A stretch of 64,000 nucleotides of DNA from an uncultured bacterium (lineage in GTDB: Bacteria; Desulfobacterota; Syntrophorhabdia; Syntrophorhabdales; JANXAF01): NCBI GenBank assembly GCA_938084905.1, contig CALKEQ010000004.1, positions 62,001 through 126,000 of the forward strand, written 5' to 3'. Positions 39,303 through 41,010 of the stretch are shown in pieces (position 1 is the stretch's first letter; the number at the start of each line of letters is the position of its first letter). The notes under the pieces are model-generated. The model worked only from the letters and a program-made list of their open reading frames with translations. It had not been told where the DNA came from and searched no databases. The translations under genes were made by a program, and so were the position numbers.

Positions 39303-39605
39303 CTATGAGCAACAACCGCCACATTGAGGAAGGCTCGACCTTATCAAAAAACCTTCCCCGCTTAATCCCTTCACGTAATCTATATGGATTGGTTTTGCGC
39401 TTTCGTATAGATCCTTTTCAACAACAAAAATAACCCCGCCATTTTCAAAGGAAATGTCTCCCTCTTTTGGCTCATCCAGAGCCATCCTAAGACTAGGACC
39501 ACTTCATGCGTGCTGTAAGAAGATCCTAACAGCAGTTTCACTTCCTTCACTTGCTTTTAAGTAAGATCTTAACGCTTCTAGTGCTTTCTCTGTTACTTGT
39601 ATCAT
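39303..39605 (-). CDS. IscA/HesB-like selenoprotein (in-frame UGA read as Sec)
   Basis: The frame from ATG 39605 to TAG 39303 is 100 codons with one in-frame TGA at codon 34 (39506-39504). Translated with TGA as U it starts MIQVTEKALEALRSYLK, has HAUSGPSLRMALDEPKEGD across the TGA, and ends with QCGGCCS. U34 and C98 are 64 apart, the spacing of the first and last Fe-S ligands in IscA (C35 and C99), so Sec replaces the first ligand. HesB-like selenoproteins with USGP motifs are an established family. A stem-loop at 39468-39484 (25 nt after the TGA) fits a bacterial SECIS. The AGGAG ribosome-binding site fits ATG 39605. A caller that treats TGA as stop would report only a 60-residue fragment from 39485. 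Confidence 0.9.
39468..39484 (-). promoter_or_regulatory. Putative SECIS stem-loop of the IscA/HesB-like selenoprotein mRNA
   Basis: On the minus strand TGGCTC-TGGAT-GAGCCA forms a 6-bp stem and 5-nt loop with G at loop position 2. The loop begins 25 nt after the UGA. This meets the published pattern for bacterial SECIS elements (small loop with G in the first two positions, about 16-37 nt from the UGA). An adjoining stem (39485-39498, loop GTCT) could stack on it. Confidence 0.6.
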
Positions 39606-39618
39606 GTCTCCTCCCATT

Positions 39619-39921
39619 TTACTTCTCTTTCTCCTTCAAAAATTCCCTGTACTTTTCAAGCATCAGCGAAGAGTACTCCCTTTTCGCCTCATCTGACTCG
39701 GGAATGTAATTTCCGTAACTTTCAATCATTGACAGAATTTCTCCTGCCAGGTTCTTTTCCGGTTTTAACCCACTCTTATAGAGTTCTTCAAATACCTCTT
39801 TTAGCCCGTAGAGACCTACCTTTGTTCCGTCGGGAAACTCGATGGTCTGCCAGCTTACAGCTGGCCTTCCCTCTTCACCTCAGTCAATTCAACCGATTGT
39901 TGGAAGTTGAATGTAGGGCAT
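39619..39921 (-). CDS. Unrecognised small selenoprotein with U-x-x-U motif (two in-frame UGA codons)
   Basis: From ATG 39921 to TAA 39619 the frame is 100 codons and contains two in-frame TGA codons, 11 (39891-39889) and 14 (39882-39880), and no other stop. With TGA read as U, the N-terminus is MPYIQLPTIGUIDUGEEG, giving a U-x-x-U motif that corresponds to C-x-x-C of thiol redox or metal-binding proteins. The rest (EFPDGTKVGLYGLKEVFEEL, NYIPESDEAKREYSSLML) is an ordinary helix-rich sequence with no Cys. A SECIS-like hairpin follows at 39849-39865. The gene is 13 bp upstream of the IscA/HesB-like selenoprotein gene on the same strand. I do not recognise the family. Function is unknown; redox or Se/Fe-S handling is an inference. 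Confidence 0.8.
39849..39865 (-). promoter_or_regulatory. Putative SECIS stem-loop of the U-x-x-U protein mRNA
   Basis: On the minus strand GCCAGCT-GTA-AGCTGGC is a perfect 7-bp stem with a 3-nt loop starting with G and U. The loop begins 21 nt after the second UGA and 30 nt after the first, so one element could serve both under the usual 16-37 nt rule. Confidence 0.65.
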
Positions 39922-39976
39922 TTTCGTTTCTCTTCCGATTTTAGCACGAAAGAGATGAGGAAGGCAACGTTTTTTG

Positions 39977-40005: not shown

Positions 40006-40032
40006 TGTAAAAAAGGGAAAGGGGGTATGGCT

Positions 40033-41010
40033 ATGAGAAAATTTTTGGTAATTCTTGCAGCACTTTTCTTCTTGGTTGGTCTTGCCCTTCCGGCTCTATC
40101 CCAGGAGAAGAAAGGGTGGCCACTAAAAGGGGTAACAATAGGAGCAGCACCTGTTGGAGGCGTTTATTACGTGTGGGCGGGAGGTCCTGCAAAGATTCTA
40201 ACGGAAAAGATGGGTATACCAGCCTCTGTTGAGTCAACAGGAGGACCAGTTCACAATACTCAGCTCGTTGACAAAAACGAATTACACTTTGGAATGGTAA
40301 CGGCTGCTCCAGTCTACGAAGGATGGACAGGCACAGGCTGGGCAAAGGGAAAAAAACATCAGAATGTAAGGGTTGTCTTTCCCATGTACACCACCTATTT
40401 CCACATGTACGCTTTGAAAAAGAGCGGGATCAAAAGTATAAAGGATCTGGATGGTAAAATCGTTGGTACAGGTCCAGTGGGTGGAACTCCGGCAACTTAC
40501 TGGCCCATGATACTCGAAGAGGCTGGAGTCAAGCCGAAAAGGATAGTGAATGCCTCATCATCAGACCTAGATAACCAGCTGAAGGATGGTCTTATCCATG
40601 CAAATGCTCAATCCGTTGGACTACCGTGGGGCCTTATACTTTCGACTGAGACAACACACGAAATTGTCGTTTTGGGTGTTGAAGATGATATCGCAACAAG
40701 ATTCATAAGCAAGCATCCTTACTTCTCTAAAGGAATAATTCCAAAGGGGACTTACAAAAGTGCTCCTTATGACATCCCAACAGTCACTGTTTGGAACTTC
40801 ATGATAACTCATAAGGATATGCCAGCTGACTTCATTTATGAGTTCACGAAGCAGATTTTCAAAAATAAGGACATTTTGGTCAGTGTCCACAAATCAGCTC
40901 AGGAGGTAGAACCGAAGAACGTCCTTTACTCACCAATCCCACTCCACCCTGGAGCTATAAAATACTACGAGGAAATAGGGCTTAAGATTCCTAAAGAGCT
41001 TAGGCCTTAA
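40033..41010 (+). CDS. TAXI family TRAP transporter solute-binding protein
   Basis: 325 residues: a signal peptide (RKFLVILAALFFLVGLALPALS) and a TAXI-type binding protein with GAAPVGGVYYVWAGGPAKIL, YALKKSGIKSIKDLDGKIVG and TGPVGGTPATYWPM. TAXI proteins feed organic acids or other solutes to a fused TRAP permease, which is the next gene. ATG 40033 sits 7 nt after GGGGG; ATG 40027 is too close to it. The ligand is not identifiable; dicarboxylates or glutamate-like compounds are common for the family. Confidence 0.93.
   Translation: MRKFLVILAALFFLVGLALPALSQEKKGWPLKGVTIGAAPVGGVYYVWAGGPAKILTEKMGIPASVESTGGPVHNTQLVDKNELHFGMVTAAPVYEGWTGTGWAKGKKHQNVRVVFPMYTTYFHMYALKKSGIKSIKDLDGKIVGTGPVGGTPATYWPMILEEAGVKPKRIVNASSSDLDNQLKDGLIHANAQSVGLPWGLILSTETTHEIVVLGVEDDIATRFISKHPYFSKGIIPKGTYKSAPYDIPTVTVWNFMITHKDMPADFIYEFTKQIFKNKDILVSVHKSAQEVEPKNVLYSPIPLHPGAIKYYEEIGLKIPKELRP

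Follow-up and report, generated by a model that had tools for sequence, protein, structure and literature searches.

A family of small proteins with two selenocysteines, apparently uncatalogued and usually located near arsenic genes in Desulfobacterota-type genomes

The window, the whole stretch of 64,000 nucleotides that was analysed, contains on its minus strand a single 100-codon frame that starts with ATG and whose only interruptions before the terminal TAA are two TGA codons, as the preliminary description had reported (Table 1). With TGA read as U, the encoded protein is MPYIQLPTIGUIDUGEEGRPAVSWQTIEFPDGTKVGLYGLKEVFEELYKSGLKPEKNLAGEILSMIESYGNYIPESDEAKREYSSLMLEKYREFLKEKEK, with the selenocysteine (Sec) region TIGUIDUGEEG and the two UGAs 9 nt apart. 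It has zero Cys residues, so that the remark that no Cys occurs elsewhere in the protein holds. Calling under translation table 11 gives nothing of comparable length on the minus strand here, again as described; gene finders overlook the gene, taking its UGA codons for stops. The genetic code is otherwise ordinary, with TGA terminating 9 of the 29 ORFs of at least 300 aa in the window, and an alternative code was rejected. An antisense ORF on the plus strand (39597-39944, 115 aa) is open under table 11, but it would begin with TTG, and it is the minus strand that carries the start sites, the hairpin and the conservation at protein level, leaving a negligible probability that it is the real gene.

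Table 1. Features of the double-selenoprotein locus (positions are those of the window)
Feature	Position	Strand	Remarks
Possible sigma-70-type promoter	39938..39967	minus	TTGCCT-18-TAAAAT; a consensus match, not evidence of function
Double-selenoprotein CDS	39619..39921	minus	100 aa; ATG at 39921; TAA 39621-39619; profile HMM match 1.5e-37 in the family search, and family alignment
Sec codon 1 (TGA, residue 11)	39889..39891	minus	TGA in 65/66 homologues with the motif; L109 has Leu TTA instead
Sec codon 2 (TGA, residue 14)	39880..39882	minus	TGA in 66/66 motif-bearing homologues, spacing variable
SECIS hairpin	39849..39865	minus	Five-base loop UGUAA, closed in the family register by a stem of 39864-39860 with 39854-39850; conserved and covarying
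Intergenic spacer	39606..39618	minus	Holds the Shine-Dalgarno GGGAGGAG ahead of the HesB/IscA gene
HesB/IscA-type selenoprotein, next gene downstream	39303..39605	minus	Sec TGA 39506-39504; NF038090 IscA_HesB_Se, 96.3 bits (cut-off 85)
TAXI TRAP transporter and its permease	40027-41010 (transporter)	divergent	Upstream of the double-Sec gene

The gene immediately downstream encodes a HesB/IscA-type selenoprotein, and ordinary gene calling breaks it up as well. Co-transcription of the two genes is probable, and mnmG converges on the pair from the other side. The HesB/IscA protein resembles the double-Sec protein in being a small selenoprotein, and it also occurs near several other family loci (HesB-Se genes were found by tblastn near five of them), but the two are unrelated in sequence and the HesB/IscA protein has a single Sec.

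The genome from which the window derives (1.54 Mb, 98 % complete) was searched for the machinery of Sec insertion. All four of the components that the preliminary description had named as a check, selA, selB, selC and selD, were found over their cut-offs, with tRNA-Sec at 74.4 bits (gathering score 47) and SelA, SelB and SelD at 588, 375 and 365 bits respectively, above the curated cut-offs. Among the 55 genomes carrying the double-Sec family, 51 had SelB above cut-off. The SelD of the window's genome (G000:C4:47574-48485) is a selenoprotein too, with one in-frame TGA.

Homologues of the double-Sec protein were present in dozens of Desulfobacterota-type genomes. A homologue search of 198 relatives gave matches in 53 genomes, and a profile search over 395 genomes of the phylum matched 59, some of them through the shared C-terminal domain alone. 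A scan of GTDB species genomes yielded 33 loci, mostly from MAGs labelled Deltaproteobacteria or Syntrophobacterales but also including the complete genome of Desulfonema magnum and a small number of MAGs of Nitrospiraceae and Desulfotomaculum. No relatives were found among PLSDB plasmids or IMG/VR viral contigs.

The motif census covered 66 distinct orthologue-grade sequences that keep the N-terminal motif when TGA is read as U. Both positions were TGA in 65 of these, the remaining one being Leu/TGA, and the recurrence of the TGAs in independently assembled genomes means that they are not sequencing errors. Cys was found at the aligned Sec positions in none of the 66, and the relatives with Cys pairs have a different N-terminus. 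Cys orthologues at Sec positions are usual in the field and are not required of selenoproteins. The homologues anticipated in the preliminary description thus exist with Sec at both positions and without Cys forms; we add to that account that the family appears, from these sequences, to be Sec-only and not mixed Sec/Cys. The spacing of the Secs takes three forms, GUxxU in most members, UxxxU (e.g. GUKDGU) and UxxxxU (e.g. GUVGGCU and GUKGGEU). In most members a Shine-Dalgarno precedes an ATG placed at a conserved distance of about eight codons upstream of the first Sec, and the region past the TGAs is under purifying selection, with a median dN/dS of 0.29 (660 pairs). Two atypical copies were observed. 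The single-Sec variant (L109:6979-7293, minus strand) has TTA (Leu) as its first Sec codon and retains the second TGA and the hairpin, and an apparently decayed second gene copy (L126:2907-3113, plus strand) keeps the motif and hairpin region but has lost the C-terminus, an intact copy being present in the same genome.

The 7-bp hairpin that had been described just past the two UGAs is present as GCCAGCU-GUA-AGCUGGC (39865-39849 when read in the window alone), with its GUA loop starting, as had been described, 30 nt past UGA1 and 21 nt past UGA2, and 14 nt between UGA2 and the base of the stem. By itself, this hairpin outperforms shuffled sequences by a modest margin only (z -1.9). It is placed far above chance by conservation, since both TGAs occupy the same columns in the homologues and all 65 homologues with two TGAs have the hairpin at an identical position and register. 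The family alignment of 33 nt around a conserved Val/Gly codon is gap-free and gives the core stem CCGAC-AGUUA-GUCGG, for which the window counterpart is CCAGC-UGUAA-GCUGG. Together with two outer pairs, the core stem was paired in 85.9 % of alignment cells. Pairs 12-22 and 13-21 showed two-sided changes in 28 sequences, with a covariation score above that of every one of 500 shuffles and of every slid register. An invariant G occupies column 16, in the loop, in 63 distinct sequences. Of the 60 loop codons that encode Val, 58 are GTT, compared with 37 of 107 Val codons nearby; this near fixation indicates a constraint that acts on the RNA as well as on the protein. Measured to the loop Val/Gly codon, the distance across the family is 18-24 nt for UGA2 and 27-33 nt for UGA1, so that one hairpin probably serves both UGAs. 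An Rfam search gave no relevant match. The alignment adds to the earlier account that the hairpin is a conserved SECIS element.

A frame with two stops could also be a decayed gene, a sequencing error or a chance product, in keeping with the modest significance of the window hairpin on its own and with the absence of a match to any known family. This explanation is refuted by the two TGAs in the same columns of 65 homologues, the covarying hairpin, the dN/dS beyond the TGAs and the complete Sec machinery, and we regard it as very improbable. The proposal that the protein carries two Secs in a U-x-x-U motif and belongs to an unrecognised family is supported by the Sec machinery, the conserved TGAs and the lack of a family match, and judged on such comparative evidence the gene almost certainly encodes a real double selenoprotein.

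Scans of the window protein and four diverse homologues against Pfam and NCBIfam (June 2026) gave no meaningful match, and nor did a PHROGs profile scan of the double-Sec protein. In its predicted UGA recoding, its hairpin just past the UGA and the Sec machinery of its genome, the protein resembles other bacterial selenoproteins that depend on SelA, SelB, SelC and SelD and an in-frame SECIS. Almost all of those have Cys homologues (PMC12013277), whereas the double-Sec family has two Secs as a rule, with no Cys form seen and no model match. Two Secs close together are also found in Prx-like UxxU (PF00578), metal-binding NF041115 UxxU, FmdB-like UxxU and MbdU (NF045648) proteins, of which NF041115 and MbdU are also named metal-binding, but none of these was hit by the window protein or the four homologues in the Pfam and NCBIfam scans. 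A May 2026 review lists 119 prokaryotic selenoprotein families (PMC13188914), and no entry evidently corresponds to the present one on a comparison of names, motifs and NCBIfam accessions. Searches of the open-access literature turned up no comparable family, whether linked to arsenic or with a UxxU motif, although an earlier description may exist outside it. The double-Sec protein therefore apparently represents an uncatalogued selenoprotein family. The deep-Sep method may miss families without Cys homologues, as its authors state (PMC12013277), which would explain how the present one came to be overlooked.

The structure was predicted with AlphaFold2 from a family alignment of 36 sequences (mean pLDDT 74.7, pTM 0.57). 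Both Secs fall on a predicted disordered tail, in which pLDDT stays under 50 at residues 1-5 and 7-19. The fold past the tail is predicted with more confidence and consists of a beta-hairpin (strands 24-28 and 34-38) and three helices (40-50, 56-68 and 77-99). A thioredoxin fold with the motif at a helix start was not seen in this model, which is of moderate confidence. Sequence and fold searches of the PDB returned nothing significant, with no match below E 0.2; the top fold match, the RiPP-leader-binding protein 5v1u (E 0.23, TM 0.31), was rejected as noise.

The genomic context was compared among the 54 family loci with enough flanking sequence, taking neighbours within 8 kb. At least one of ACR3, ArsP, ArsM or ArsC was present at 37 loci and none of these at 17. 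Individually, ACR3 was found at 28 loci, ArsR at 19, ArsP at 18, and ArsC and ArsM, labels that are our own reading of the sequences, at 12 and 9. Pfam searches on representatives confirmed the ACR3-type permease (PF01758), ArsR (PF01022), ArsP (PF03773), PadR and ThiS/MoaD, and the identity of ACR3 also follows from genome searches with TIGR00832. Of 58 family loci, 33 had ACR3 no more than 10 kb away, with only about 51 ACR3 genes or fragments in 55 genomes; at about one ACR3 gene per genome, the chance expectation is below 1 % by rough estimate. At three loci (L040, L042 and L122), a recurrent group comprising a PadR regulator, a MoaD/ThiS-like protein, a Cys-rich ArsP permease and HesB-Se surrounds the double-Sec gene, with not all genes at each locus, and this set is perhaps a distinct metalloid module.

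Relatives of the C-terminal domain were also found in arsenic loci. The domain is homologous to an N-terminal extension of MTH895/ArsE-type thioredoxins (TIGR00412, PF13192), an extension that itself matched no Pfam or NCBIfam model. The two groups differ in that the double-Sec protein has no thioredoxin domain and the fused forms have no Sec tail. Such fusions were observed in ars-type loci at L039:10403-11278 (minus strand), L050:3396-3935 (minus strand) and L055:2294-3109 (plus strand), and at L056, L057, L110 and L113. Further relatives of the domain carry Cys pairs (L040:10229-10612, minus strand; L044:5524-5826, plus strand; L042:9367-10104, plus strand; L096:5947-6246, plus strand). Their motifs are CPC, PCCAP (PCCAPV), GGCCC and GGCCPQP, and they lie in related arsenic loci, in some cases adjoining the double-Sec gene.

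The window's genome departs from this pattern. ACR3, ArsB and ArsP were not found in it, and no ArsM was found above cut-off, so that delivery to such efflux pumps cannot be the role of the protein there; an arsenic role in this genome is one that we infer, and the expectation of a purely ars-operon protein is weakened. The HesB/IscA selenoprotein is the only partner in this genome, and together with the loci in which MoaD/ThiS-like and PadR genes stand beside ArsP and HesB-Se this would be compatible with trafficking of a chalcogen or metal other than arsenic, such as delivery of selenium or sulfur, mercury handling or, jointly with the HesB/IscA selenoprotein, Fe-S repair; linkage to ars genes would then reflect co-location on stress islands. 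Such a role is improbable given the tight, repeated, operon-like linkage to ACR3 and ArsR across many genera, and given that a HesB-Se neighbour was found at just 6 of the 54 loci. Arsenic or soft-metalloid handling is the likely function of the family, for which the gene neighbourhood gives indirect evidence.

A more serious rival is a redox centre, with the Secs acting as a selenol/diselenide carrier. Arsenate reductase, ArsM or the HesB selenoprotein would be the partner that it reduces, and thioredoxins and CcdA/DsbD-like proteins encoded nearby would recharge it. Genes of the thioredoxin-like and CcdA-like kinds are indeed frequent neighbours (Trx3 at 19 and CcdA, by our reading of the sequences, at 16 of the 54 loci), the C-terminal domain is fused to thioredoxin in paralogues, the UxxU motif resembles redox motifs, and a redox function is presumed for most selenoproteins that are still uncharacterised (PMC13188914). 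However, the motif lies on a predicted disordered tail and not at the helix start of a thioredoxin fold, and the spacing of the Secs drifts among UxxU, UxxxU and UxxxxU, a variability easier to reconcile with chelation than with a fixed CxxC-type or rigid redox active site. We consider the redox centre rather unlikely on balance, and lean slightly towards binding as the chemistry of the Sec pair.

The reading that best accounts for the whole, with a probability of about 60 %, is a small cytosolic double selenoprotein that acts as a selenium-based metallochaperone or buffer. Its two UGAs would be recoded by a SelB-dependent process, both apparently served by the single hairpin, and the model places the two selenocysteines on a flexible tail ahead of the small folded domain. 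The paired selenolates would act as chelators of a soft metal or metalloid, with As(III) as the likeliest target, a proposal that is based on the linkage to arsenic efflux and methylation genes, the Cys-pair paralogues in the same loci and the relaxed spacing of the Secs. The folded domain would dock to a partner, which in most relatives would be the neighbouring arsenic efflux or thioredoxin apparatus (ACR3, ArsP, an MTH895/ArsE-type thioredoxin or ArsC) and in the window's genome probably the co-transcribed HesB/IscA selenoprotein. The protein would work like the arsenic metallochaperone ArsD (PF06953), also a small ars-operon protein, with a vicinal chalcogenol pair proposed to hold As(III). 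This is an analogy of function only and the protein is not an ArsD, as five members of the double-Sec family gave no PF06953 match and the predicted fold is not thioredoxin-like. More tentatively, the family may be a Sec-only 'selenochaperone' for arsenic resistance in anaerobes, in which the selenolate pair of the tail binds arsenite and Sec, used for its metalloid affinity, is irreplaceable by Cys.

These results add an apparently uncatalogued selenoprotein family of a kind that standard gene calling and finders based on Cys homology miss. The presence of two Secs without a Cys form raises the question of why selenium is indispensable in such a family, and the linkage to arsenic genes provides a testable hypothesis, namely that anaerobes may handle arsenite by means of selenolates.
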